Shown here piece after piece: positions 2,459-62,921 of a stretch of DNA of 64,000 bases. Position numbers and translations under genes: made by a program. Under the pieces are notes generated by a model. It was not told the DNA's origin. It did no database searches and worked only from the letters and a program-made list of their open reading frames with translations. The DNA is from Reichenbachiella carrageenanivorans (lineage in GTDB: Bacteria > Bacteroidota > Bacteroidia > Cytophagales > Cyclobacteriaceae). The number at the start of each line of letters is the position of its first letter. Position 1 is the stretch's first letter. The stretch is from contig NZ_CP106735.1 in NCBI RefSeq assembly GCF_025639805.1, positions 1,738,001 to 1,802,000 on the forward strand, given 5' to 3'.

Positions 2459-3756
2459 ATGCAATATCAAAACACCCTAGCATTCGCACGCGAATGCGAT
2501 GCCAAAGACCCACTTCGCTCCTATCGGGCACAATTTTACATACCGCAGCACGAGGGAAAGGACTGCATCTACCTTGTGGGAAATTCTCTAGGCTTGCAGC
2601 CAAAAACTGCGAGAGCATTTATCGAACAAGAACTACTAGACTGGCAAAACCTAGGCGTGGAGGGACATTTTGATGTGCGAGCCAAACGGCCTTGGTTCCA
2701 TTATCATAAATATTTAAAAACTCATTTGGCTACTTTAGCAGGAGCCAATGAATCTGAGGTAGTATCTATGAATAGTCTCACCACGAATCTGCATCTGATG
2801 ATGGTATCTTTTTATCGGCCTACGACAGAGCGTTTCAAAATTATCACAGAAGCAGGGGCTTTTCCTTCCGATCAATATGCGCTAGAAACGCAAATACATT
2901 TTCATGCAAATAAAGGAGGTACGACACTTTTTAATCCCAAAGAGGCTATGGTCGAACTCGTCCCAAGGCCAGGGAGGAGACTTTGAGAACGGAAGACATA
3001 TTGGCTGCTATAGCAGAGCACAAGGATCAACTGGCTTTGGTTATGATGCCCGGTGTGCAATATTATACAGGGCAGTACTTCGACATTAAAGCGATTACGA
3101 AGCAAGGACATGACTGTGGGGCATTGGTGGGTTTTGATTTGGCTCATGCTTTTGGCAATGTGCCGCTACAGCTGCACGACGACGGCGTTGATTTTGCTGT
3201 TTGGTGTTCGTATAAGTATCTCAATTCTGGACCAGGGGCAGTGTCAGGTGTTTTTGTACATGAGCGGCACAGCAGCAATCCGGATTTGCCTCGGTTTGCC
3301 GGCTGGTGGGGTCACGACGAAGCTGAGAGGTTTCAGATGAAGAAAGGGTTCGTGCCTATGGAGGGTGCGGACGCTTGGCAGCTTAGCAATGTGAATGTAA
3401 TACCGAGTGCTGCTCACTTGGCTTCGTTGGAAATGTTTTCGAAAGCAGGTATCTACAACCTTAGAGAAAAAAGCATACTGCTCACAGGTTACATGGAGTA
3501 TTTAATTAATGAATTGAATACTGGAGGAGAAGTGATAAAAATAATTACACCGAGTGACTCAGGTCAAAGAGGAGCCCAACTGTCCTTGTGCTTGTCTAGC
3601 GGAGGCAAAGAGGTGTTTATTCAGTTAGGTAAAAATGGAATTGTTGCGGACTGGCGTGAACCGAATGTGATACGTGTAGCAGCTGTGCCTATGTACAATT
3701 CTTTCGAAGAGGTCTGGCTTTTTGCAGATCAATTGAAGCGATTAGTACGTAATTAA
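2459..3756 (+). pseudogene. kynU: Kynureninase, interrupted by a one-base deletion at about 2972-2974
   Basis: PLP enzyme that cleaves (3-hydroxy)kynurenine to (3-hydroxy)anthranilate and alanine, feeding the dioxygenase just upstream. The first frame (2459-2986) gives residues 1-175 with YLVGNSLGLQPKTAR and HFDVRAKRPWFHYH; the second (to 3756) gives the PLP part, with VGFDLAHAFGNVPL and the lysine motif WCSYKYLNSGPG. Both halves are well conserved and together give about 433 residues, the normal length. The join needs one extra base: the run of three G at 2972-2974 should be four, giving PGEETLRTED. So it is either a sequencing error in a homopolymer or a recent real frameshift. GTG at 2456 immediately precedes the ATG chosen. 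Confidence 0.9.
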
Positions 3757-3809
3757 AAGGGGAATTTCACAGGTAATTACTTAGATAGGGTTAATTTTTT
3801 AAAATTAAC

Positions 3810-3860
3810 TACGTATAAATTTGACATACTTAGAAAAAACTACGTACTTTTACGTAATAA
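3810..3860 (+). promoter_or_regulatory. Operator/promoter region of nirBD with TACGTA inverted repeat
   Basis: TACGTA occurs at 3810-3815, 3841-3846 and 3851-3856. The last two form an inverted repeat with a 4-base gap (TACGTA-CTTT-TACGTA). The same arrangement lies upstream of the nitrate reductase gene at 9057-9070. A TTTG at 3820-3823 and TACTTTTA at 3845-3852 resemble a Bacteroidota -33/-7 promoter, imperfectly. The repeat ends 13 bases before the nirB ATG. I infer a binding site for a nitrogen regulator, possibly the response regulator at 8178-8858. Confidence 0.55.
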
Positions 3861-3869
3861 ATCTAAGAT

Positions 3870-6374
3870 ATGGAAAAGATCATAGTTATTGGTAATGGTA
3901 TGGTGGGGTATAAGTTTTGCGAAAAGCTTAGATCCAAAGCCACAAAGGAACAATTTTCAATTAAAGTATTCGGAGAAGAGCCTCATCCGGCATATGACAG
4001 AGTGCATTTGAGTGAGTACTTTTCTAATCGATCAGTCGAGGATTTAGAAATGGCGCCTCGCAGTTGGTACGTAGAAAATGACGTAGAGCTGATTACTGGA
4101 GAGCTGATCGTGAATATCGATAGAGAAAACAAAGTGATCAAGAGTCATACAGGGCTTGAAGAATCTTACGATAAGTTGATTTTGGCTACTGGTTCAAGTG
4201 CTTTTGTCCCTCCTATCAAAGGGTCGGAAATGCAAGGTGTGTTTGTCTATCGTACCATCGAAGACTTAGAGGCTATTATTGAGTATAGCAAGCATTCCAA
4301 AAAAGCGGCTGTACTTGGAGGTGGGTTGTTGGGGTTAGAAGCTGCCAAGGCTATGCTAGACCTCAATCAAGAGACGCATGTGATCGAATTTGCTTCGCGA
4401 TTAATGCCACGGCAGTTGGATCAGGCAGGATCCGATGCGTTGAAATATAAGATGGAAGAGCTGGATGTGAATATTCATATGAATAGAAACACGGCCAGTA
4501 TCTTAGGAGAAGACAAGATGACGGGGTTAGAATTTACCGACGGTCAATTGATGGCTGCCGATATGCTGGTGATCTCTTGTGGAATAAAACCTCGCGACGA
4601 GCTGGCCAAGCAATGTGGATTGGAAGTAGGACACAGAGGTGGAATAGTGGTCAATGATCACTTGGAAACCACCGACAAAGATATTTTTGCCATAGGTGAG
4701 TGCGCCTTGCACAAGGAATTTATCTATGGTCTAGTCGCTCCTGGCTATGAAATGGCTGAAGTAGTAGCGGATAGACTTATTGGTGGTGATGAGAAAACCT
4801 TTGAAAGTTTTGACATGTCTACCAAATTGAAGTTGATAGGTGTGGATGTAGCTAGCTTTGGCGATGCGCTTTGTGAAAACACACCACACAAGCCGATCGT
4901 TTTCGAAGATAGCTTAGAAGGTATTTACAAAAGAATTAATCTCTCCGAGGATGGTAAAACCCTTCTGGGAGGCATATTAGTAGGAGATGCAGAAGCCTAC
5001 GGCATGCTACTTCAAATCACCCTTAATGGTATGGCATTGCCTCCTAGCCCTGAAGACCTCATCTTGGGAAGTAGAGGTGGAGAGTCTGCGGATATGGAGC
5101 TGCCCGATACCGCTCAGATTTGCTCATGTGAAAACGTGACAAAAGGCGATATCTGCAAGGCCGTAGTGGACAACAACCTAGAGCATGTGGCTGATGTGAA
5201 GTCGTGTACCAAAGCAGGGACTGGCTGTGGAGCATGTAGCCCAATGGTTGCGGATATTTTTAATGCCCAGCTCAAGTCTATGGGCAAGACGGTCAAAAAA
5301 GTATTGTGTGAGCATTTCGATTATTCTCGTCAAGAGTTGTTCGATTTGATCAAAATAAAAGGAATCAAGAGTTACGATGACCTCCTAGATGCACATGGAT
5401 CGGGCGATGGTTGTGAAGTTTGTAAGCCAGCAGTGGCTTCATTGATGGCCAGTATCTGGAATGAATTGATTTTGAATCAAGATACGATTCAAGACACGAA
5501 CGATAGATTTTTGGCTAATATCCAAAAAGGAGGGTCGTACTCTGTGGTGCCTAGAATTCCTGGAGGTGAGATTACACCAGACAAACTGATTGTGATTGGG
5601 CAAGTGGCTAAAAAATATGACCTGTATACCAAAATCACTGGAGGGCAGCGTATCGATCTGTTTGGCGCAAGTGTCAATCAGTTGCCAGACATTTGGGAAG
5701 AATTGATTGAGGCGGGTTTCGAGAGTGGTCATGCCTATGGAAAATCACTCCGAACAGTGAAAAGCTGTGTAGGGTCTTCTTGGTGTAGATTTGGGTTGCA
5801 CGACTCTGTGTCGTTCGCTATCGAAATAGAAGAAAGATACAGAGGACTCCGGTCTCCACATAAGCTAAAAAGCGCCGTGTCGGGTTGTAGAAGAGAATGT
5901 GCAGAAGCATTGAGCAAGGATTTTGGTATCATCGCTACCGAGCTAGGTTGGAATCTATACGTATGTGGCAATGGTGGAGCTAATCCACAGCATGCCTTAC
6001 TGCTGGCTGGCGACATAGATTCAGAAACTTGTAAAAAGTACATTGATCGATTCTTGATGTTTTACATCAAAACAGCTGAGCCACTCAACAGAACGTCTAC
6101 TTGGCTGAACAAACTAGAAGGCGGCATAGAGTACCTCAAGCAAGTAGTTGTAGGGGATTCATTAGGCATAGCGGCAGATTTGGAGCGAGAGATGGACTTT
6201 ATGGTTGAAACATACAAGTGTGAATGGAAAGAAGTGGTAAACAACCCTGAGTTGAGAAAGAAATTTAGCCATTTCGTAAACACTGAAATTCCTGATCCTA
6301 CGATGCAATTCGAAGACTTTAGAGGGCAGAAGAAGCCAGTAGATTGGGACAAAGAATTAGTAGAGAGTAAATAA
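3870..6374 (+). CDS. nirB: Assimilatory nitrite reductase [NAD(P)H], large subunit
   Basis: 834 residues, the usual NirB length; reduces nitrite to ammonium in the cytoplasm. Domain order: FAD/NAD(P)-binding reductase (residues 1-about 320, VIGNGMVGYKF and later VLGGGLLGLEAA), a rubredoxin/NirB C-terminal-like linker, a BFD-type [2Fe-2S] domain near 417-460 (CSCEN, then CTKAGTGCGAC), a second BFD-like segment near 477-525, then the sulfite/nitrite reductase half-domains. The siroheme/4Fe-4S ligands are visible as CVGSSWC near residue 632 and CRREC near residue 673. nirD begins 10 bases after the stop. A TACGTA operator lies directly upstream. Very well supported. Confidence 0.97.
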   Translation: MEKIIVIGNGMVGYKFCEKLRSKATKEQFSIKVFGEEPHPAYDRVHLSEYFSNRSVEDLEMAPRSWYVENDVELITGELIVNIDRENKVIKSHTGLEESYDKLILATGSSAFVPPIKGSEMQGVFVYRTIEDLEAIIEYSKHSKKAAVLGGGLLGLEAAKAMLDLNQETHVIEFASRLMPRQLDQAGSDALKYKMEELDVNIHMNRNTASILGEDKMTGLEFTDGQLMAADMLVISCGIKPRDELAKQCGLEVGHRGGIVVNDHLETTDKDIFAIGECALHKEFIYGLVAPGYEMAEVVADRLIGGDEKTFESFDMSTKLKLIGVDVASFGDALCENTPHKPIVFEDSLEGIYKRINLSEDGKTLLGGILVGDAEAYGMLLQITLNGMALPPSPEDLILGSRGGESADMELPDTAQICSCENVTKGDICKAVVDNNLEHVADVKSCTKAGTGCGACSPMVADIFNAQLKSMGKTVKKVLCEHFDYSRQELFDLIKIKGIKSYDDLLDAHGSGDGCEVCKPAVASLMASIWNELILNQDTIQDTNDRFLANIQKGGSYSVVPRIPGGEITPDKLIVIGQVAKKYDLYTKITGGQRIDLFGASVNQLPDIWEELIEAGFESGHAYGKSLRTVKSCVGSSWCRFGLHDSVSFAIEIEERYRGLRSPHKLKSAVSGCRRECAEALSKDFGIIATELGWNLYVCGNGGANPQHALLLAGDIDSETCKKYIDRFLMFYIKTAEPLNRTSTWLNKLEGGIEYLKQVVVGDSLGIAADLEREMDFMVETYKCEWKEVVNNPELRKKFSHFVNTEIPDPTMQFEDFRGQKKPVDWDKELVESK

Positions 6375-6384
6375 TCGTAGGGCA

Positions 6385-6759
6385 ATGACTGATATATTAG
6401 AGTATAAAACAGTAACAGAAAGTGAAGTAGGTGCTTGGATAAAAGTAGCTGCGGTAGCAGATTTTCCAGCCAATGGCGGTGTCTGTGCAGATCACAAAGG
6501 GTTGCAAGTGGCGGTATTCAATTTTAGCCGTAGAGATGAATGGTACGCTACTCAAAATTTGTGCCCACACAAAAAACAAATGATCTTGAGTCGGGGTATG
6601 TTGGGTTCGTCTGGAGAGGAGCCCAAGGTTGCATGTCCGTTTCATAAGCAAACATTTTCGTTGAAAAATGGAAATAACCTAAACGGCGACCATTGTGCAC
6701 TAGCTACGTATCCTGTAAAAGTAGAAGAAGGGTATGTTTATGTAGGTTTTAAAAACTAA
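6385..6759 (+). CDS. nirD: Nitrite reductase small subunit (Rieske-like)
   Basis: 124-residue partner of NirB with the Rieske fold. One Cys-Pro-His and one Cys-Pro-Phe-His pair are present (LCPHKKQ near residue 52 and CPFHKQTF near residue 84), so a [2Fe-2S] cluster is possible; many assimilatory NirD lack some of these ligands, so retention is worth noting. The gene follows nirB by 10 bases and must be co-transcribed. Confidence 0.95.
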   Translation: MTDILEYKTVTESEVGAWIKVAAVADFPANGGVCADHKGLQVAVFNFSRRDEWYATQNLCPHKKQMILSRGMLGSSGEEPKVACPFHKQTFSLKNGNNLNGDHCALATYPVKVEEGYVYVGFKN

Positions 6760-44851: not shown

Positions 44852-45163
44852 GAGGGAGGCAGCTGTTTTAAGACTGTGGTCTTGAAACTTTGAATGAAAA
44901 GCAGTGTCTGAGACACGGAGGGGGTTGCAGAGACTTAGATTGGTCACGCTTTGCAAAAGCGCGGCAGAGGAGGTAAAACAAAAAAAGCAGACTAGAAAGT
45001 CTGCTTTTCGTGACCTTGTCAGGATTCAATCACATTTATTTATTCAATTGATAACCAGCTAATTGTAAAGGATAATTGCCTTTTGGGTACAACAAAGGTA
45101 CAATGTGAATGCAGCGATCTGCCTTTAGATGCTTTGAAGTGACTAATTGGTTTGAAAAGTTTT
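44852..45163. other. 312-base gap with a terminator hairpin at 44983-45008
   Basis: Contains the 11-bp stem AAAAGCAGACT (44983-44993) / AGTCTGCTTTT (44998-45008), which terminates the upstream lipoprotein gene and works on both strands. Nothing else recognisable. Confidence 0.7.
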
Positions 45164-52909: not shown

Positions 52910-53554
52910 TTAAAAAGACAAAGACTTTTCTGCAAAGCTCACTGCATCGGTCAAGTTCTTTTTCTCGATCAGTCGCCGTACCTCTTTATTGAAGGCTTCT
53001 ATTAGTTTATTACCTAGTACCTGCTTTTTAGAATCTGTAGATTCATTACGTGAGGATGCCACTTTATAATCTATATAAGACTGTAGGGACAATAATGTTC
53101 TTGGGAAATCAAAATAAGAAACTGATCCTTCTTGCTTTTCAACAGTCAATATATCGTGTGGTCTTCCTGTTTTTCTTTTAAGCTTAATTTGGTTCAGTTG
53201 ATATCCTTTGGATTGTATTTGCAGTTTCATTCGCTCTATCTGCTGATCTGATAATTCTTCTAGTTCACTTGGGATGTATACTTTGAAGTCCAGATTGGCC
53301 GATCCGTTTTTTTGGAGGAGTTCACTAATCGCTGGCTCTAAGAAGTTATTGACATAGCCATGAGCCAAAGAAATAGCTGGGGAGAATTCTAACTTTTCTA
53401 TTCGACGCTTTTGAAAATAAATTACAACTCCCTGTAGTACCATCCAAACACCAATAATAGGTTCCCATTGTGTCAGTTCTGGATAAAAAAACCAAAAAAT
53501 TAATAATATAAAAGTGATTGCTCTTCCGGCTATATGATTTCTATTTGAGTTCAT
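52910..53554 (-). CDS. Transmembrane STING effector (TM-STING) of a CBASS system
   Basis: 214 residues from ATG 53554 (MNSNRNHIAGRA), 8 bases after the E2 stop; a longer frame to 53611 would overlap E2 by 49 bases. Two membrane helices (about 11-27 and 32-47) are followed by a cytosolic STING domain: FSPAISLAHGYVNNFLEP (57-74), FKVYIPSELEEL (80-91), a lid-like GRPHDILTV with Arg131, and YFDFPRTLLSL (147-157). The pattern parallels animal STING (GLAWSYY, YILLP, YATPLQTL). Bacterial STING binds cyclic di-GMP made by its partner CD-NTase and oligomerises; here killing would be by membrane disruption. Preceded by E2-like and CD-NTase genes. Confidence 0.85.
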   Translation of the reverse strand: MNSNRNHIAGRAITFILLIFWFFYPELTQWEPIIGVWMVLQGVVIYFQKRRIEKLEFSPAISLAHGYVNNFLEPAISELLQKNGSANLDFKVYIPSELEELSDQQIERMKLQIQSKGYQLNQIKLKRKTGRPHDILTVEKQEGSVSYFDFPRTLLSLQSYIDYKVASSRNESTDSKKQVLGNKLIEAFNKEVRRLIEKKNLTDAVSFAEKSLSF

Positions 53555-53562
53555 AAGTTTTA

Positions 53563-53964
53563 TTATTGTGGGTGAATACCTCCTCCTTTCCATTCTCCTG
53601 TTACTAACCATATTTCATAGAAAAACAGCCACAAGGAAACCCAAGGAATGATGTAGTCAACTATTAGTTTTTTTGAATTAAATTCTTTTGCCTTAGGAAA
53701 AAATAGGCAAAGGCTTCCATCCTTATATAGGTGCTCTGCCTTCTTTCCATTTACTTCCATTTTTATTTTAGGGTTTAAAATGAGTATTTTGATATTATCT
53801 CGAAATCTATACTTGATTTCATAGCTGTACCAGCAGCTTCTGGGAGAGGGTTTTAGTTGCCCTCTGGCTCTCAGGTAATTCTTATCTAAAAAAAGATCAC
53901 ACTCAGGAATTTTTGACTTCAATGCTGCTTCCTGAAGGTGTATTGGAATATCTTTAATCTCCAT
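53563..53964 (-). CDS. CBASS E2-like conjugation protein (type II-short Cap2-like)
   Basis: 133 residues. The E2-like motif is clear: EHLYKDGSLCLFFPK with His78 and candidate catalytic Cys86, then IIPWVSLWLFFYEIWLVTG and EWKGGGIHP at the end. This matches the stand-alone E2-type proteins of type II-short CBASS, which attach the C-terminus of the CD-NTase to targets and tune its activity. Overlaps the CD-NTase gene by 11 bases. No separate E1 or JAB protease gene is next to it. Confidence 0.82.
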   Translation of the reverse strand: MEIKDIPIHLQEAALKSKIPECDLFLDKNYLRARGQLKPSPRSCWYSYEIKYRFRDNIKILILNPKIKMEVNGKKAEHLYKDGSLCLFFPKAKEFNSKKLIVDYIIPWVSLWLFFYEIWLVTGEWKGGGIHPQ

Positions 53965-55084
53965 AGAATGTATTTGGTTTTATTGGAAGACTTTCTTCTG
54001 ATTCTTTACCGACTATGATACCCGAAGGGAGTATTCCTAGTCCGTTACCTCTCCTGTGATTTACCGCATTAGCCTTCGCCTCCATAGCCTTAATGTATGG
54101 CTCTTCACCGAACAAGCCTTTCATGAGTTTACTTTCGTCCACTATGTCATGAGATGCTTTTAAATCTCGCCAATCAATACTAAGCTGTTGAATAAAGGCA
54201 ATAAAGTGTCTATACAGTTCAGGTTTGTCTTCCCACATATCTGCGAGATTCTCTTCGGGGTTTACAGGGTTAGGGAGTTTAAATGGTTTGTTGGGATAAA
54301 GTGTTTCGATATGATTTCGTATCTGCGTTAAGATTCCTTCAAACGTTTCAGAAATGGATGATTGCCCTTCATAAAAATGCGCTGCCAATGTTGTAAGGAC
54401 TATGCTAGTTGGTGCATTTTCAAGTTGTTCATTGAAGTAGATGTTTCTTCTCATTTTTATCAATTGTACAGCCCTTTGAAGTGGCTTCTTCTTAGCATAT
54501 TCTTCGATTTCAGTTTTGCTAGCTGAAAAGGCTTCTTCAAGAAACGTCAACTGAACCCTATTAGCGATATCTAGAAACCATGCCTGATACCCTCTTGGAC
54601 ATGACCTTAACCATATTTTTTGCTTTTGATCAGGTATATCAATCAGGTTTTTATCATAAACTACAACCATACACCCTGGAACAACGTCAAGGTGAAAGTC
54701 TCCTTTATAATTCAGTCTAACACATCGAGATTTAGACTCACTCATTTTTTGATAGGTCTCATTTTCGTTAAGTCTACGAACCACTTCATTAAAAATAGTT
54801 TGAGGTTCGTAATTTGAGGACAGCAATTGGATGTGGATAATTACATCCAAGTCAAACTCTGACTTACCTATTGGTTTCGTGGTAGTCCCAATGGATACTG
54901 ACCCTTGAGGGTATATTTCGATCTCCGCATCTTCAAAAAAATCTGAATCTTCACTGAGCCACTTGCTTATTGCTTCATAGGCACTTTTCAATCTGTTCCA
55001 GCGAGTTTGATCTAATTCTGCAGCCTCTGCCATTTTGGCCAAGGTGTCTTCAAGTTGTGTGTGTGAATCTGATGTGATTAACAT
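53954..55084 (-). CDS. CBASS CD-NTase (cGAS/DncV-like nucleotidyltransferase)
   Basis: 376 residues. The nucleotidyltransferase triad is visible: GSVS at 61-64, Asp78 and Asp80 in EFDLDVIIHI, third Asp133 in FHLDVVPG. Residues 200-300 are the helical OAS1-C-like domain. It would make a cyclic (oligo)nucleotide on phage infection; with a STING effector, cyclic di-GMP is expected. The C-terminal tail ends NTFYGD, with Gly next to last, in keeping with E2-dependent conjugation of the tail. First gene of the operon; only 103 bases from the divergent sigma factor gene. Confidence 0.9.
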   Translation of the reverse strand: MLITSDSHTQLEDTLAKMAEAAELDQTRWNRLKSAYEAISKWLSEDSDFFEDAEIEIYPQGSVSIGTTTKPIGKSEFDLDVIIHIQLLSSNYEPQTIFNEVVRRLNENETYQKMSESKSRCVRLNYKGDFHLDVVPGCMVVVYDKNLIDIPDQKQKIWLRSCPRGYQAWFLDIANRVQLTFLEEAFSASKTEIEEYAKKKPLQRAVQLIKMRRNIYFNEQLENAPTSIVLTTLAAHFYEGQSSISETFEGILTQIRNHIETLYPNKPFKLPNPVNPEENLADMWEDKPELYRHFIAFIQQLSIDWRDLKASHDIVDESKLMKGLFGEEPYIKAMEAKANAVNHRRGNGLGILPSGIIVGKESEESLPIKPNTFYGD

Positions 55085-55136
55085 GGCATTACTTTTAATT
55101 AAACAAAATTTTCCTTTCTTTACTTACATAATGCTC

Positions 55137-55167
55137 AAAGTGTGACACTTCGATCCTGTCACACTTT
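55137..55167. promoter_or_regulatory. 11-bp perfect inverted repeat in the CBASS / sigma-factor divergent promoter region
   Basis: AAAGTGTGACA (55137-55147) / TGTCACACTTT (55157-55167), 9-base centre, in the 103-base gap between the two divergent starts. Each strand carries TGTGACA at a distance that could serve as a -35 element, 34 to 41 bases from either gene's ATG side. I infer a shared operator or a paired sigma-specific promoter. Confidence 0.6.
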
Positions 55168-55187
55168 ATACATTTTATCTTATATAG

Positions 55188-55868
55188 ATGGAGAAAGAAA
55201 AAGAAGTGTCGTTTCAAAATGTTAATGACGAAGAGTTGTTCTTCTATATGGCGTGTAGAGATGAAGATCCTACTACTGCTGACTTGGCCTTTAATGAGTT
55301 TTATTCGCGTTTCAAGAATTACACTTTTTCAGTGTGCAGGGATTTTTTTATTAGTAGAAATCGATTTGACGAAGAGGATTTAAAAAGTTTTTTTCACAAT
55401 GTGTTCTTGAAAATATATGATAAAGCCGGCGAGATTTCAATTGATAGCTCAGTGCCTAATGATGAAAAAGAATTTGTTATTCTAAAAATAATTAGTCGCT
55501 TTGTGAATTATGAAGGGTTAACCTATTTAAAGAGTTCTAAAAATTCCTCTTTGGAAATAAGCTATACGGACGATTTATTAAATGATGTTCCAGAAGAAGG
55601 ATTATCTGAGTATCAGTCTATTGAGAGAAAAACATTAGAGAATGCATTGGCCTCGCTGAGTGATCGAAATAGATTCATTTTGCTGGATTTCTACCGACAT
55701 GAAAACATAAATTCCGAAAAGGCTAATTGGACTCCTCCACAGACATTAACTGAAATGTGCAACTACTATGATACAACCAAACAAGCCCTTAGAAAAATTA
55801 AAGAACGGGCATTGAAGAAAATAATTGAGTACGTTGATCAATCAGAAAAGTTAAAAGTAGTTAAATAG
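55188..55868 (+). CDS. ECF-like sigma factor
   Basis: 226 residues with a region-2-like helix bundle (LAFNEFYSRFKNYTFSVCRDF, DEEDLKSFFHNVFLKIYDKA, about 33-85) and a region-4-like end (LASLSDRNRFILLDFYRH at 148, QTLTEMCNYYDTTKQALRKIKERALKKI at 184-211). The linker is longer than in small ECF factors. Operon with the 100-residue protein (7 bases later) and the metallopeptidase. Divergent from CBASS, so it probably transcribes CBASS and/or itself. Confidence 0.78.
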   Translation: MEKEKEVSFQNVNDEELFFYMACRDEDPTTADLAFNEFYSRFKNYTFSVCRDFFISRNRFDEEDLKSFFHNVFLKIYDKAGEISIDSSVPNDEKEFVILKIISRFVNYEGLTYLKSSKNSSLEISYTDDLLNDVPEEGLSEYQSIERKTLENALASLSDRNRFILLDFYRHENINSEKANWTPPQTLTEMCNYYDTTKQALRKIKERALKKIIEYVDQSEKLKVVK

Positions 55869-55875
55869 ATAAATC

Positions 55876-56178
55876 ATGGAAAAATTTAACAAACGACTGA
55901 CCAAATCTCTAGTGGAAACAGGTAATCTTGTTCCGTCTACAATCGAGGAGATTAAGATTTATCTGAAGAGTAATAAAATTGAGCAGTTGCCTGAACAGTT
56001 TGAGCTCAATATTGATTCAAGATCAAAAAGAGCCGAGTATAAATATAATAACCATCAAGAAAATTATTCAGGTACTGAAGAAAATCTGGCTCAAGCTGCA
56101 AGAGAAGGTCGAGAAGTTCCTACCGATATAAAAAAGAAAATGGAGAATGACAGGAAGAACTCTAATCCAGAAATCTAG
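55876..56178 (+). CDS. Small protein between sigma factor and protease, candidate anti-sigma factor or protease substrate
   Basis: 100 residues, strongly polar, no membrane segment or signal. N-terminal helices (RLTKSLVETGNLVPSTIEEIKIYLKS) precede a disordered-looking acidic tail. No family recognised. It starts 7 bases after the sigma gene and overlaps the peptidase gene by 32 bases, the position where an anti-sigma/substrate would be expected. Role is inference. Confidence 0.6.
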   Translation: MEKFNKRLTKSLVETGNLVPSTIEEIKIYLKSNKIEQLPEQFELNIDSRSKRAEYKYNNHQENYSGTEENLAQAAREGREVPTDIKKKMENDRKNSNPEI

Positions 56179-56965
56179 GAAGGAATTTATCGAAGAACTT
56201 GCTGAAAGTGTTGCAGAGGATTACTGTCCAAAGAATGTAATTCAACCAGAAATAATTGCTGATGAAAATGGTATTACCTATAGCTATAATAATTATGGGC
56301 TATGTTTTGATGGAATGTTAGAACACAGGTTTGGTAAATTTCATATCTATATAAGCTTAAATAAAAGATTAGTTCATGAAACTTCAGCACGTGCGAGATT
56401 TACATTTGCCCACGAACTTGGTCACTATTTCATAGACGAGCATAGGATAAGCTTAAAAAATGGTAAAACACCATCTCACCCAAGCTACACCAATTTTCAA
56501 TCTAAAAACCCAATCGAATTGGAAGCTGATCTATTTGCTGCGTGTCTGTTGATGCCAAAATCAAGATTTGAAGAATTATCCACTGGGCAGATCTTTAGTT
56601 TTAACCTCGTTGACATGATAAGTAAAAAGTTTAATACGAGCTTATCTGCTACCTTGATTCGTTATGCTGCCATCGACAACAATCATCCCATTTGTATAAT
56701 ATGTTCTCAAAATGGCCGGGTAAAATGGCATAGGACAAGCAGTGACTTTGGCTTTAAATATCTAAAGGGATATGATGAAAACATATCTCCATGGACTGTT
56801 GCAGGAGAATACTTTACAAAAAAGATTAAAAGAACATCAGACAAAGAGGAAGTTGAAGCAAAAGAATGGTATAAAATTGGCGAGAACTATAATAGGATGC
56901 TGTATGAAAAATGTATTTATGCGGATGCACAGAATTTGGTAATGAGTGTTCTTTGGGAAGATTAG
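56147..56965 (+). CDS. ImmA/IrrE-family metallopeptidase (COG2856/M78)
   Basis: 272 residues. Zinc motif HELGH at 89-93 with the third ligand in IELEADLFAACLLMP near 124-126. C-terminal extension (about 170-272) as in stand-alone family members (NNHPICIICSQNGRVKWHR). These peptidases cleave repressors on DNA damage or phage signals; the CapP protein of some CBASS operons is one. Last gene of the sigma factor operon. Confidence 0.88.
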   Translation: MTGRTLIQKSRKEFIEELAESVAEDYCPKNVIQPEIIADENGITYSYNNYGLCFDGMLEHRFGKFHIYISLNKRLVHETSARARFTFAHELGHYFIDEHRISLKNGKTPSHPSYTNFQSKNPIELEADLFAACLLMPKSRFEELSTGQIFSFNLVDMISKKFNTSLSATLIRYAAIDNNHPICIICSQNGRVKWHRTSSDFGFKYLKGYDENISPWTVAGEYFTKKIKRTSDKEEVEAKEWYKIGENYNRMLYEKCIYADAQNLVMSVLWED

Positions 56966-57881: not shown

Positions 57882-58712
57882 TTATATGGAATGGTATTGA
57901 TTGTACATATCTCTGTAGACATCCATCATTCTTGTTCTCTTATTTTTATTAACTGATGAATTTAGCAGAACAGCAAAGTGTTCTCTCAGCCGGCTATCAC
58001 CCATTTGGAGATTGGCATGATAGAATAGCTCATTTATCGATTCCATTTCATCGAACATTTTGATTAATGGGAATTTAATTTTTGGCCTGTTTATCTCATA
58101 CCAAGTTTTGTCATAGAAATAGTCATAAATAGGTTTACTACAATATGGGCTTTTGATTCTTTTTTCAAAAGCCAGCCCGATTTGTTTCAGTTTTTCAAAT
58201 TGATCAGTCGAGTAGTCCTTAAATATTGACCTCCTATATTCTTGATTTAATTCAAGCGTCTTTTTATAATGAATTAATGCCTCCTTATTTAACAAAAAGT
58301 GATCGTCTGATTCATAACCAGTTAAAATGACCTTTTCTTTTACGTAAGGCATTGAGGCAAGAAACGGATACAAACATTCAATATAGGTTTTCTTTTTACA
58401 TTCATATTTTGTCATCAATTCCTTGATTAAATCTAGGTTAACTTCAGCCCATAGTTCAATACCCACAAAGTTGCAGTTGAGCTTTCTCGAAATTTTCTCT
58501 GAGGTTTTAAAATCAGTTGAGAGTTTGCCAGGTAAAGAAAAGGAATAAACAGTCACTCTTTTTTTAAGTCTCAACAACCCAAAAAGAACAGCGCAAGAAT
58601 CAATACCACCACTCATAAATAGACCAATTTCTTGTTCGCCCTGGCAATCAACTTTCAATTGATAAATAAACCTATTGCGAAGATCAGTGATATCAATTTG
58701 TTGATTTAGCAT
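57882..58712 (-). CDS. Asparagine-synthetase-like (PP-loop) ATP pyrophosphatase, lacks glutaminase domain
   Basis: 276 residues. PP-loop FMSGGIDSCAV at 32-42; IELWAE near 90; KVILTGYESDDHFLL near 133 (corresponding to the GEGADE block of asparagine synthetase); the helical part AFEKRIKSPYCSKPIYDYF and KIKFPLIKMF resembles the C-terminal lid. No N-terminal glutamine amidotransferase domain, so amine donor would be free ammonia or an amino compound. Such enzymes adenylate a carboxylate and form an amide. Its start overlaps the methyltransferase gene by 20 bases. I infer that it amidates the carboxymethyl group made by that enzyme. Confidence 0.8.
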   Translation of the reverse strand: MLNQQIDITDLRNRFIYQLKVDCQGEQEIGLFMSGGIDSCAVLFGLLRLKKRVTVYSFSLPGKLSTDFKTSEKISRKLNCNFVGIELWAEVNLDLIKELMTKYECKKKTYIECLYPFLASMPYVKEKVILTGYESDDHFLLNKEALIHYKKTLELNQEYRRSIFKDYSTDQFEKLKQIGLAFEKRIKSPYCSKPIYDYFYDKTWYEINRPKIKFPLIKMFDEMESINELFYHANLQMGDSRLREHFAVLLNSSVNKNKRTRMMDVYRDMYNQYHSI

Positions 58713-60990
58713 GATTTCTGTAAAGTTTATGGAGCTCTTCTAAAGCCTTGTAAATAACTTCTTGATTCGACTCAACAATTGATCTGTATTTGTTTAAGAA
58801 GTCCTTTAAAAGGTACTGTTTGCCTTTATCAAAGGCCGTATGTTTGATGTCCCAACCTAAATTGTAATAGCGCGAATAGTAATATCTTTTATTGCTACGC
58901 TTTGACTCAGGTTTAGGGAATTGGTTATAATCGGATTGATTTGTTAAGTTCTTGAAAACAGTCATTAAATCTTCCTTGTCAGTGTTCACTACAGCATCAT
59001 CTTTTGATGAAGTAGATGGATTATTAATGGGTTTCAAATATTGTTCTTTGACGATTGACACCAGATGTGCCATTAGAACAGGAGGCACGGCTCTTCCAAT
59101 CATTTCTTCAGGATCAGATTTACCATAGTTATAGTCATGAGGCCATGACCCTGCTCTTTCTAGTTCAGCAAGAGTTAAATGCCTTGGTTGATTATAATGA
59201 TACATCGGTGCATTAGGAATGACGGTCGGAATGACCTTGCTTGCACTCACTTTATTTTTATTATACCAATGTTGTTTAGGATGTACCTTGGCAAAATTAT
59301 TACCTGGTTCGAGTTGGTTCCATAAATCTTTCACCTGTTCACTTGTAATCCATTTTACCTGTTGTGGATTGACTTCTTCAATTTCCCGATAAGGAATAGG
59401 TTTTTCAGTCGATCGTAAATCAAGTTTTGGAAGAACTGATTTCAATTGATCTAAATAAACTTTAGTGTGATCTGTTTCATTGTCAAACATACTGTAATCG
59501 ATCACTGCGTTTGAATCAATACTATTATCAATTCGAGGTGCTAAGTCTTTTCTTACCGCAATAAAGAATACTCGTCTTCTTTTTTGAGGCACCCCAAAGT
59601 TGCTGGCATCCAACAAATAAAAATTAACAAAGTAACCTGCCGCATCAAATGCTTTTAAAACGGGTATCATATAATTCAATTTTGACTTACCGATGATCAA
59701 CCCTCTGACGTTTTCTGCGATGATAATTTTTGGCCTTAATCTTTTGGCTAGATTAATGAAATCGAAGAACAACTCTGACACTAATTGTTTTGGTGTATTT
59801 GCTGTATACTCAATTTCTTTCCCCCAATTTTTCTCTCGCTTACCATTTGTGGAGAATGTTTTACATGGTGGGCTCCCATCTAAAATATCGAGTTCATGTA
59901 ATTCTTTTGGATAATCGTCCCATTTAACAAAGTCCTGAATCATTTCAGTGTATGAGTACTTTGGGTTCATGTTCAAATTATAAGTATCATTCTTTTTTTT
60001 GTCGAATTCTAAATTGGCCACAATATCACACGAGGCAAGTTTATAGCCCATTGAGCTGCCACCCCCACATGAAAATGTACTCATTACTTTAGGGAGAGTA
60101 CTCTTGTGCCCTTCTACTTGCTTATTTACATCAGACAAGTGCCATTCATATGAGAATTTATGAAAGGATTCAGCTTCCGGAATTGTTTCTGTTTTTTCAG
60201 TTTGACAAACGGTATCTTCGTACCCTTTTTCAATAACTGGGGAAACCTTGTCAAGGTGAATAATGGTCTTTGATGGAAGATCACTTTTGATTGCTAAGTA
60301 GCCAACAAACTGTTTGTCTTTGTAAAAGGGTTCGACATGGTCAAACATATCAAGCAGTTCGAGGTTTTCAGAATTTTTGAAGGGTACTAGTACATTTTCG
60401 AGTGCAAGTCGCTTATTGAGTATTTCATCTTCAGAATAGCCCTGCTTCTTTTTATAGCAATAATAGTTATCCATGAAGAGCTTATTGGTTTGTGCCGTTT
60501 CACCCAATATTTTTTCAGTCAAGATGAGAATCCCTCCAGGAACTAAACCATCATAAATTTTCTGAATAACGTGTTTACGGTGAATTGGCCTGACAAACAT
60601 CAATACCCAAAGCATGAGTACAACAGATGCATTAGAAACAGTTTGATTATGCACTAGATCATTGCTAAGTACTTTGACTCTTGAACTATGTTTGACGATC
60701 TTTTTCATGGCCTGTTCTAGCATATCTGCAGATTCATCAATTCCGATCAAGTTGGTTTTGTCATCAACCAGCTTTTCAATATTCAAAAGAGTTGTTGCAG
60801 TTGAACACCCCAAGTCATAAATATTAGTATTGGGTTTTGCGAATTGTTGGACAATTCGAGCAACATCTTCCTGTATACTTTCATAGCCAGGAATACTTCT
60901 GGATGCCATGTCATCAAAGACTGTGGCAACTTCATTTTTGAATGCAAAAGGTTCTTCTTTTGATTCTTTAAACACTTCGTCTTTTTTCAT
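58693..60990 (-). CDS. CmoA-like carboxy-SAM synthase fused to a cytosine-C5 DNA methyltransferase (predicted DNA carboxymethyltransferase)
   Basis: 765 residues from ATG 60990 (MKKDEVFKESKEEPFAF), matching the CmoA start; a frame extension to 61113 looks non-coding. Residues 1-235 follow CmoA closely: VFDDMASRSIPGYESI, YDLGCSTATT (58-67), LVPGGILILTEK, GYSEDEILNKRLALENV (184-200, Arg194 at the conserved KR). CmoA makes carboxy-SAM from SAM and prephenate. Residues 300-650 are a C5-MTase: motif I FSCGGGSS (306), motif IV PPCKTFS with Cys376 (usual PCQ is PCK), ENV (426), QKRRR (469), RHLTLAE (603), motif X GRAVPP (632-637) where GN is usual. The N-to-R change matches the site engineered in M.MpeI to accept carboxy-SAM. 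C-tail 660-765 unknown. Very strong for the domains; activity inferred. Confidence 0.93.
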   Translation of the reverse strand: MKKDEVFKESKEEPFAFKNEVATVFDDMASRSIPGYESIQEDVARIVQQFAKPNTNIYDLGCSTATTLLNIEKLVDDKTNLIGIDESADMLEQAMKKIVKHSSRVKVLSNDLVHNQTVSNASVVLMLWVLMFVRPIHRKHVIQKIYDGLVPGGILILTEKILGETAQTNKLFMDNYYCYKKKQGYSEDEILNKRLALENVLVPFKNSENLELLDMFDHVEPFYKDKQFVGYLAIKSDLPSKTIIHLDKVSPVIEKGYEDTVCQTEKTETIPEAESFHKFSYEWHLSDVNKQVEGHKSTLPKVMSTFSCGGGSSMGYKLASCDIVANLEFDKKKNDTYNLNMNPKYSYTEMIQDFVKWDDYPKELHELDILDGSPPCKTFSTNGKREKNWGKEIEYTANTPKQLVSELFFDFINLAKRLRPKIIIAENVRGLIIGKSKLNYMIPVLKAFDAAGYFVNFYLLDASNFGVPQKRRRVFFIAVRKDLAPRIDNSIDSNAVIDYSMFDNETDHTKVYLDQLKSVLPKLDLRSTEKPIPYREIEEVNPQQVKWITSEQVKDLWNQLEPGNNFAKVHPKQHWYNKNKVSASKVIPTVIPNAPMYHYNQPRHLTLAELERAGSWPHDYNYGKSDPEEMIGRAVPPVLMAHLVSIVKEQYLKPINNPSTSSKDDAVVNTDKEDLMTVFKNLTNQSDYNQFPKPESKRSNKRYYYSRYYNLGWDIKHTAFDKGKQYLLKDFLNKYRSIVESNQEVIYKALEELHKLYRNHAKSTN

Positions 60991-61598: not shown

Positions 61599-62921
61599 AT
61601 GACAGCAGACAATAGGATTATCCTTCCACCATATTTTACAAAGAGCAGGATTCAAGAATTACAGAAATTATTACCTAAGCACGTGGATAGGGTATTACTA
61701 TTTTATAGTTATTTGATGTATAATTATTTAGCAATAGCCAGACGGGAAAAATATGATTATGATGAGTACCGTCTCACCAAATTTATTTCGGTGCACAGCG
61801 AGAAGCTAGCAAAAATATTCGGAAGAACAGAATATAGAACCATCTTATCAATTTTGAAGAATGAAGGGCTTCTAGAAATAAATGAATCCTATCATCAGGC
61901 GATTTCAACTAGTAAAATTCATATCAGTGGAAAAACCAAAGAGTACAAAATACCTAGTAGACTTTTGAATCATACTTTTAAGAAAGGATGGATAAAATAC
62001 GAGTTGACCGATGCTAAATCTATAAATGCAAAAAGCAACTTTGTCAATTTCCTAAGGAGGAGCAAAGAAGATAATATCAAATTATGTGAAACAAGTAAAA
62101 ATGTTTTACTTGAGTCTCTCAAAAAATTAGACTTATCCTTTTTACCAAAAGGTGATTTTTATGATAATTTCACTGGGCCTGGCATGGATAACTTTGGCAA
62201 GAGAATTCACTCTGTACTTACAAATTTGAATAAGAAACTGAGGCCATTAATAAAGTATTCTGATTCTAATGAAACGCTTGTTGAAATTGATATTAGAACA
62301 AGCCAAATATATTTCCTTGCAAATCTATCAATAGATTGGATGTTTAAGGTTCTTCGGCCACAGGATGCTGTAAAGTTCGAATCTACTATCCAGAAACTTG
62401 AAAAGTGTGAGGGCTTCAAATTATTCCGAAAGGATGTATTATTTAGTGATGTTGATATCTATTGTCGATTCGGTGAGGAGTTTGAGATAGAAAGATCAGA
62501 CGCTAAAAATCTAATCTTTTCGATTTTGTTCAGTTCTCCATATGGAGATAAAGGTAGTGAGTTTGATTGCTTTGAGGAAGCATACCCAGGTCTGCTCGAT
62601 ATTTTGAATCAAATAAAGACAGAAAAAATCAACAGTTCTACTAGTAACAAGAGACACAGCAATTTAACATTGATCTTACAAAGAATGGAAAGTAATTTAG
62701 TACTTGACCAAGTAGTTGAAGAAGCAGCTAATTATGATATTACGGATTTACTTACCATACATGACTCTTGGTTGGTTAAAGCATCAGAGGCAGATAAGTT
62801 CATCGCAATTGCAGAAGGTGTATTTGAAAGGGTCTTTGGTAATTCGCCAAATCTGACAATTACTCAATTAGAAGACACAAAAAAGGAGCCCTCAAAAATT
62901 GAAGGCTCCAAAGTTGGATAA
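61599..62921 (+). CDS. Family-A DNA polymerase-like palm protein of mobile/accessory type
   Basis: 440 residues. Three blocks resemble polymerase motifs: LVEIDIRTSQIYFLANL (motif A; Asp231), ERSDAKNLIFSILFSSPYGD (motif B, R-x3-K and YG, with a longer K-to-YG gap than PolI), and DLLTIHDSWLV (motif C, HD at 388-389). The N-terminal 120 residues have no exonuclease motifs; they hold a winged-helix-like stretch (KLAKIFGRTEYRTILSILKNEGLLE). Relatives appear in Bacteroidota islands. Could be a replication, repair or template-independent polymerase. Last codons form a terminator for the opposite strand. Confidence 0.6.
   Translation: MTADNRIILPPYFTKSRIQELQKLLPKHVDRVLLFYSYLMYNYLAIARREKYDYDEYRLTKFISVHSEKLAKIFGRTEYRTILSILKNEGLLEINESYHQAISTSKIHISGKTKEYKIPSRLLNHTFKKGWIKYELTDAKSINAKSNFVNFLRRSKEDNIKLCETSKNVLLESLKKLDLSFLPKGDFYDNFTGPGMDNFGKRIHSVLTNLNKKLRPLIKYSDSNETLVEIDIRTSQIYFLANLSIDWMFKVLRPQDAVKFESTIQKLEKCEGFKLFRKDVLFSDVDIYCRFGEEFEIERSDAKNLIFSILFSSPYGDKGSEFDCFEEAYPGLLDILNQIKTEKINSSTSNKRHSNLTLILQRMESNLVLDQVVEEAANYDITDLLTIHDSWLVKASEADKFIAIAEGVFERVFGNSPNLTITQLEDTKKEPSKIEGSKVG
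62885..62909 (-). terminator. Minus-strand terminator overlapping the end of the polymerase-like gene
   Basis: Stem GGAGCC-x-TCAA (62885-62895) / TTGA-x-GGCTCC (62899-62909), one mismatch. On the minus strand it is followed by six T. It would end transcripts coming from 62950 upwards. Confidence 0.65.

Follow-up and report, generated by a model that had tools for sequence, protein, structure and literature searches.

DNA carboxymethylation has been described in Synechococcus phage S-B43 (Yang et al., Nat Commun, Dec 2025, PMC12783734). According to the main text of that paper, the phage CmoA makes carboxy-S-adenosylmethionine (Cx-SAM) and CmoX, whose crystal structure is PDB 8YF3, makes 5-carboxymethylcytosine in GC motifs. 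Arg350 of CmoX stands in for Asn304 of HhaI and contacts the carboxylate of Cx-SAM, the sole cofactor that wild-type SpCmoX accepts; the R350N variant accepts neither cofactor. The ligase CmoY adds glycine, and native phage DNA showed the glycyl form, with the bare form absent. The authors report 5,615 CmoX (SPPC plus Arg350), 4,257 CmoA and 2,251 ligase candidates in phages, view the system as evading restriction, and cite an engineered carboxymethyltransferase, M.MpeI N374K. In their main text we found no mention of a fused CmoA–CmoX, a prophage or a Bacteroidota case, its sole fusion concerning ParB domains. Here, we analysed 64,000 nt of the Reichenbachiella carrageenanivorans genome (NZ_CP106735.1, positions 1,738,001–1,802,000; ‘the window’), in which a single gene joins cmoA to cmoX. 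We consider it very probable that this natural fusion carboxymethylates cytosine in DNA and is cargo of a putative integrated element, most likely shielding DNA from restriction.

An initial annotation of this DNA knew of no described natural enzyme of the kind, a view overtaken by the chemistry, crystal structure and phage distribution in PMC12783734. In our search of mainly open-licence literature, without preprints, we found no other paper on DNA carboxymethylation, nor CmoA and CmoX as one polypeptide, nor the system in a bacterial chromosome. As far as that search reached, the CmoA–CmoX fusion, its bacterial island setting and a second Arg lineage (see below) are new.

The ORF (open reading frame) that the annotation had marked, with its strand unstated, is open on the minus strand and encodes 765 aa (Table 1). 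As had been proposed, its N-terminus matches CmoA: residues 3–235 match NCBIfam TIGR00740 with 193.6 bits against a cut-off of 193.3 (196.3 bits in a search of the whole genome), and this half has the CmoA fold. The Cx-SAM pocket also appears preserved, with TIGR00740 narrowly passed and Arg194 at the place of E. coli CmoA Arg199, which we take to be the carboxylate-binding residue. This Arg is not decisive for CmoA, since the CmoA of phage S-B05 has none at that position. The fusion is the only CmoA match in the 4.81-Mb, one-contig genome, which encodes a prephenate dehydratase and, by profile search, no CmoB over its cut-off.

The C-terminal half is a C5-cytosine methyltransferase (MTase), as had also been annotated, with matches to TIGR00675 dcm (residues 302–643, 127 bits, cut-off 100.65) and PF00145 (residues 301–644, 151 bits) and with the fold of 8YF3. 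Motif IV (SPPCK) and motif X (GRAVPP) read as first reported, and the codons of Cys376, Lys377 and Arg633 were checked. In the PDB sequence alignment, EEMIGRAVPP of the fusion is placed on TERVGRMVPP of 8YF3, so that Arg633 falls on Arg350 of a solved carboxymethyltransferase. Phe306, Glu328, Phe329, Cys376 and Arg633 correspond to Phe25, Glu47, Phe48, Cys98 and Arg350, read via the S-B05 copy, whose numbering fits 8YF3. This half carries both the SPPC motif and the Arg350 equivalent used to search for CmoX in PMC12783734, and CmoA is encoded in the same polypeptide. Lys377 had been taken as further evidence for Cx-SAM use; we dropped it as a marker, because Arg-type relatives read PCS, PCA, PCV, PCC or PCK there. 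Instead of a carboxymethyltransferase, the gene could encode an ordinary 5-methylcytosine MTase fused by chance to a CmoA whose product serves elsewhere, as might be suggested by Met-type relatives of the same clade that lack a nearby CmoA and are presumably SAM (S-adenosylmethionine) enzymes. We regard this as very improbable, given that Arg633 matches the residue that contacts the Cx-SAM carboxylate in an enzyme that takes only Cx-SAM (PMC12783734) and that the genome has no CmoB over the cut-off.

The fusion is not an assembly or frame artefact, because R. faecimaris DSM 26133 (locus L389, genome G154) keeps the same CmoA–CmoX architecture with 77% identity, an ATG at the equivalent place and a matching next gene. 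This is the further CmoA–C5-MTase fusion that the initial annotation had suggested looking for. The ratio of non-synonymous to synonymous substitution between the two genes is ∼0.05 (dN 0.16; dS 3.3, saturated), which points to purifying selection. An AlphaFold2 model of the 765-aa protein reached a mean pLDDT (predicted local distance difference test) of 80.9 and a pTM (predicted template modelling score) of 0.61; the C-terminal extension is kept in R. faecimaris and absent from viral contig L013. Among 390 genomes scanned family-wide (E ≤ 1e-40), 13 matched, two over the whole fusion (the window's genome and R. faecimaris) and 11 over the CmoA half only; phylum-wide, five of 395 genomes matched, the window's own over the whole length and four over the CmoA half. 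In a scan of genome contigs, motif X in MTase ORFs of the resulting loci (L386–L475; best 80 of 167 confirmed relatives) read Met in 79, Asn in two and Arg in four, the last being whole or partial copies of the genes from the window and R. faecimaris. Among 386 loci, ORFs matching both the CmoA and CmoX families were confined to the window, its copies and R. faecimaris, and a whole-fusion query of viral contigs gave two stretches that matched a pattern, neither confirmed by tblastn.

Across viral loci, the presence of Arg at motif X goes along with that of a CmoA-family gene close by. Four scans of viral contigs were made, with motif X read by profile alignment and MTase ORFs below 120 aa excluded. 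With an alignment of Arg-type MTases as query (scan a; best 80 of 576), 87 MTase ORFs were obtained: seven Arg ORFs had CmoA in the locus, and those lacking CmoA were 73 Met, 2 Asn, 4 unread and 1 Arg. A CmoA alignment (scan b; best 80 of 546) yielded 19 MTase ORFs, 18 with Arg and one unread; many of its loci had no MTase, and CmoA without an MTase was seen in 75 of the 186 loci gathered by then. Scan c disregarded CmoA and used a nucleotide pattern that encodes Arg (CGN) at motif X; it matched at least 120 loci, 107 with an Arg MTase and 13 without one. A CmoA-family gene was present in 99 of the 107 (65 with a strong ORF, 34 with a weaker one, 8 with none) and lay within 1.5 kb of the Arg MTase in 98 of the 99; two Asn ORFs had a weak CmoA match 4.7 kb off, in loci that also held an Arg MTase. 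In the control, queried with a generic C5-MTase alignment (scan d; best 80 of 509; 93 ORFs), all four Arg ORFs had CmoA and none of the 72 Asn ORFs did, the other CmoA-less ORFs being 1 Lys, 1 Asp and 15 unread. Scans a and d gave the same result when weak CmoA matches were counted too. Fisher values for the association were 7e-7 and 2e-9, which are too optimistic since the sequences are related.

Phylogenetic trees suggest that the two halves differ in origin. In a tree of 65 chosen CmoA rows, the CmoA half clusters with the E. coli enzyme and with CmoAs from cellular genomes (99/88), and not with the CmoX-linked CmoAs of viruses and plasmids. In the CmoX tree (82 rows, chosen or drawn at random, of which 80 differ), the CmoX half groups with viral contig L013 and a Met-type family (100/100), apart from S-B43-type CmoX (99/90). 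Because one half groups with cellular and the other with viral sequences, the protein looks like a cellular CmoA joined to a phage-type CmoX. The Met-type C5-MTases (GMSVPP at motif X; L012–L085, L088, L089, L390–L468) nest with the CmoX half. They number 73 in viral contigs, none with CmoA, and 79 in genome loci, of which one has a weak CmoA match ∼8 kb off (best 80 of 576 and best 80 of 167, respectively). A second set of Arg enzymes, each with an adjacent CmoA, was found in L309, L311, L313 and L316 (GFPCA, GRTISIP-like) and in L169 (GFPCQ, SRSVSIP; long branch). As these fall among Asn-type MTases in the tree of sampled sequences, away from SPPC CmoX, Arg probably arose independently in a GFPC-type lineage, which the SPPC filter of PMC12783734 would have missed.

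Several points weigh against our interpretation. The CmoA half exceeds the TIGR00740 cut-off by only 0.3 bits and, at 137 bits, is below the cut-off of 285 for PRK15451 (NF011995), another model under this name, which we did not take as defining, membership being judged by TIGR00740, fold and tree. The CmoX half shares only ∼33% identity with the studied enzyme (S-B05 copy), and the Cx-SAM contact Asp69 of 8YF3 is Met350 in the fusion, with Phe25, Glu47, Phe48 and Arg350 kept. Moreover, the large family nearest this CmoX has Met and, apart from the one distant weak match, no CmoA. Among the CmoA-family neighbours of scan c, 34 of 99 are weak on our own profile (62–127 bits), which was built from CmoX-linked sequences. 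All ten viral CmoA-family ORFs tested (seven weak, three strong) fall below the NCBIfam curated cut-off; for the seven weak ones, taken from the 34, the CmoA model is the best NCBIfam match in each. The scan-d query included three CmoA-linked MTases, the sequences are related, and 1.5 kb on both sides was available for just 46 of the 74 non-Arg ORFs. Finally, three Bacillales megaplasmids (L008–L010) carry, next to CmoA, MTases that have TSGIPS or CSGIPS at motif X, neither Asn nor Arg, and so count against a strict Arg rule. Giant-phage records with CmoA and ligase (L160, L162, L167) each encode elsewhere a CmoX-like ORF of 723–742 aa; the motif-X pattern GRxVP was not found in the stretches of these records that were examined.

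The gene that follows the fusion bears on the end product. It encodes a predicted CmoY-like amide ligase that matches PF00733 (6.9e-9) and is of the ATP-pyrophosphatase type, with the SGGIDS loop (SGGxDS) present. The initial annotation held that the protein makes its own Cx-SAM and leaves 5-carboxymethylcytosine in DNA. The chemistry is favoured by the equivalence of Arg633 and Arg350, the CmoA half and the Arg/CmoA association. Free 5-carboxymethylcytosine as the end product is not supported, because the overlapping gene is of CmoY type; an amide of that base is the probable product. That the bare base is final and the ligase acts elsewhere appears quite unlikely to us: four (L004–L007) of the ten annotated loci L002–L011 do have CmoA and an Arg MTase with no ligase match, two (L002, L003) have all three genes, and ligase matches occur in 37 of the 107 Arg loci of scan c, on contigs that are often short, but in the window the fusion and the ligase gene share 20 bases, and the latter has an adjoining copy in R. 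faecimaris and shares phrog_26038 with the S-B05 ligase (31% identity). It also seems unlikely that the ligase uses ammonia to give 5-carbamoylmethylcytosine; its asparagine-synthase fold would allow this, and the ligase of TurkishDelight, with a glutaminase domain, is of a type tied to ammonia in PMC12783734, but the 276-aa ligase of the window is missing that domain. Separately, a viral ORF (L157:3351-5933) matches both CmoX and a CmoY-type ligase and so represents a CmoX–CmoY fusion.

The operon is putatively cargo of a ∼24.6-kb element integrated at tRNA-Arg. The 20-bp repeat presumed to be attL copies the 3′ end of tRNA-Arg(acg), whose gene lies with the partner repeat 5.6 kb past the window's right edge, beside a tyrosine integrase; the repeat is the sole exact run of at least 14 bases shared by the stretches compared. 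The enclosed DNA has a GC (guanine plus cytosine) content of 0.352, against 0.427 and 0.408 in the outside flanks. A query of the joined flanks found no genome with both together, the best match in the seven other genomes of the genus spanning the tRNA side only; since an empty site was not found, insertion rests on the repeat, tRNA gene, integrase and GC content. The repeat and tRNA gene can be read directly from the DNA; mobility of the element is presumed.

Next to the cmo genes lies a CBASS (cyclic-oligonucleotide-based antiphage signalling system) locus, and between the two is gene 3, which has no family match in Pfam, NCBIfam, PHROGs or PADLOC. Of the eight genomes that represent the genus, four encode gene 3, in every case close to a DNA MTase gene: the fusion in the window and in R. 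faecimaris, an N4/N6-type enzyme in G196 and an Eco57I-type enzyme in G225. We do not favour gene 3 as a pathway enzyme, since two of the four genomes that carry it have no fusion match; it is probably an element gene. This neighbourhood raises the possibility, to our mind a doubtful one, that the same chemistry serves as the modification half of a restriction-modification-like defence that marks self DNA of the cell or island. CBASS adjoins, related islands carry the N4/N6- or Eco57I-type MTases near gene 3, together with a possible nuclease with no family found (L476:6591-7475) or an HNH-like gene (L477:6915-7526; both by eye), and the best PADLOC matches of the C-terminal half are type II MTases. 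Against this role, no restriction enzyme was recognised in the operon, gene 3 itself being without a family and occurring without the fusion in two genomes, and PMC12783734 sees the phage system as restriction evasion.

Table 1. Positions of the features discussed, numbered from the first base of the window
Feature	Position	Strand	Notes
cmoA–cmoX fusion gene, 765 aa	58693..60990	minus	ATG at 60990; no internal stops
CmoA half (carboxy-SAM synthase), residues 1–240	60271..60990	minus	
Codon for Arg194, the counterpart of Arg199 in E. coli CmoA	60409..60411	minus	alignment; E. coli numbering provisional
CmoX half (predicted C5-cytosine carboxymethyltransferase), residues 285–655	59026..60138	minus	
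Catalytic Cys376, motif IV SPPC (residues 373–376), Cys98 of 8YF3	59863..59865	minus	alignment, codon check
Arg633, motif X GRAVPP, Arg350 of 8YF3	59092..59094	minus	alignment, codon check
C-terminal extension, residues 661–765 and stop	58693..59010	minus	mostly helical in AlphaFold2 model, low confidence
cmoY-like gene, 276 aa, asparagine-synthase-type ATP-dependent amide ligase without glutaminase domain	57882..58712	minus	
Gene 3, 255 aa	57066..57833	minus	
CBASS: prokaryotic STING effector, E2-like, CD-NTase (minus); sigma-like gene, CapP-like peptidase (plus)	52910..56965		
440-aa gene, no Pfam family	61599..62921	plus	similar ORFs in related islands
Left 20-bp repeat of tRNA-Arg 3′ end, presumed attL	45010..45029	plus	

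Both halves, their key residues, the gene order, the conservation and the Arg/CmoA association were observed directly; for activity, product, target sequence and role, we infer the following course. The N-terminal half would make Cx-SAM from SAM and prephenate, and the C-terminal half would attack the target cytosine via Cys376, with Arg633 holding the Cx-SAM carboxylate, so that the carboxymethyl group is transferred to C5. The CmoY-like ligase would then likely amidate this group, and the modified DNA of the cell or element would most likely be shielded from restriction. More tentatively, and with somewhat less than an even chance in our estimate, the system may represent a cellular rather than viral hypermodification, with amidated 5-carboxymethylcytosine put into the chromosome by a self-sufficient enzyme, possibly with channelling between its domains. 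Encoded on a mobile defence island, it would either label self DNA for a restriction system that has escaped recognition or give the island shared protection. If active, the fusion extends DNA carboxymethylation from phages into bacterial chromosomes, offers a one-protein tool for placing a ligatable carboxylate on DNA from SAM and prephenate alone, and provides a natural case in which to test whether a basic motif-X residue selects carboxy-SAM, as the rule has it. The second MTase lineage with Arg and a CmoA neighbour suggests that this chemistry arose more than once.

CmoA was also seen beside other candidate partners. Of the viral loci with a lone CmoA, 30 form one cluster; in lone loci including L122, L127, L131, L133, L142, L145, L163, L164 and L171, CmoA lies near ParB-domain proteins, among them one of ∼520 aa with a C-terminal class-I-methyltransferase-like part (phrog_5475; Methyltransf_23 match in L163). 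No CmoX match was found in these nine records; of 18 records searched, which may be fragments, 13 had none. The ParB-associated proteins are candidates for a further Cx-SAM-using DNA modification; in a PDB profile search, all six sequences listed were of the ParB or nucleoid-occlusion type, with methyltransferases absent. In L100, a 25.9-kb record with no CmoX match, a PF01555 N6/N4 DNA MTase (2906-4627) lies ∼1.3 kb from CmoA (5968-6678); the preliminary search described in PMC12783734 gave no N6/N4-type candidates with CmoA. In 12 loci (L174–L183, L185 and L011; Bacteroidota genomes and an Ensifer plasmid), CmoA stands beside a related membrane protein, of which the only one scanned (L185) matches PEMT and ICMT; these are possibly carboxymethyltransferases of lipids or small molecules.

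Compared with known systems, the locus is closest in content to S-B43 CmoA–CmoX–CmoY, with the same three functions, the motif-X Arg, the SPPC motif and a ligase in phrog_26038 (compared through the S-B05 copy). In contrast to the separate phage genes, CmoA and CmoX are here fused, in a bacterial chromosome and with a C-terminal extension, the CmoX half (∼33% identical) belonging to another clade and the CmoA half to the cellular branch. M.MpeI N374K, a laboratory change acting at CG sites, is likened to the fusion by description. The CmoA of the E. coli CmoA/CmoB pathway to tRNA uridine 5-oxyacetic acid (cmo5U) likewise falls in TIGR00740, but the present genome has no CmoB over the cut-off and its CmoA is joined to a DNA enzyme. 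Viral contig L013 (IMGVR_UViG_2077657008_000038), whose host we guess to be a member of the Bacteroidota, has CmoA, a CmoY-like ligase and CmoX in one run, as in the window. Its CmoX is the nearest separate Arg-type CmoX found (42%), with SPPCK in one copy; unlike in the fusion, it is a tandem double domain and its CmoA is a separate protein.

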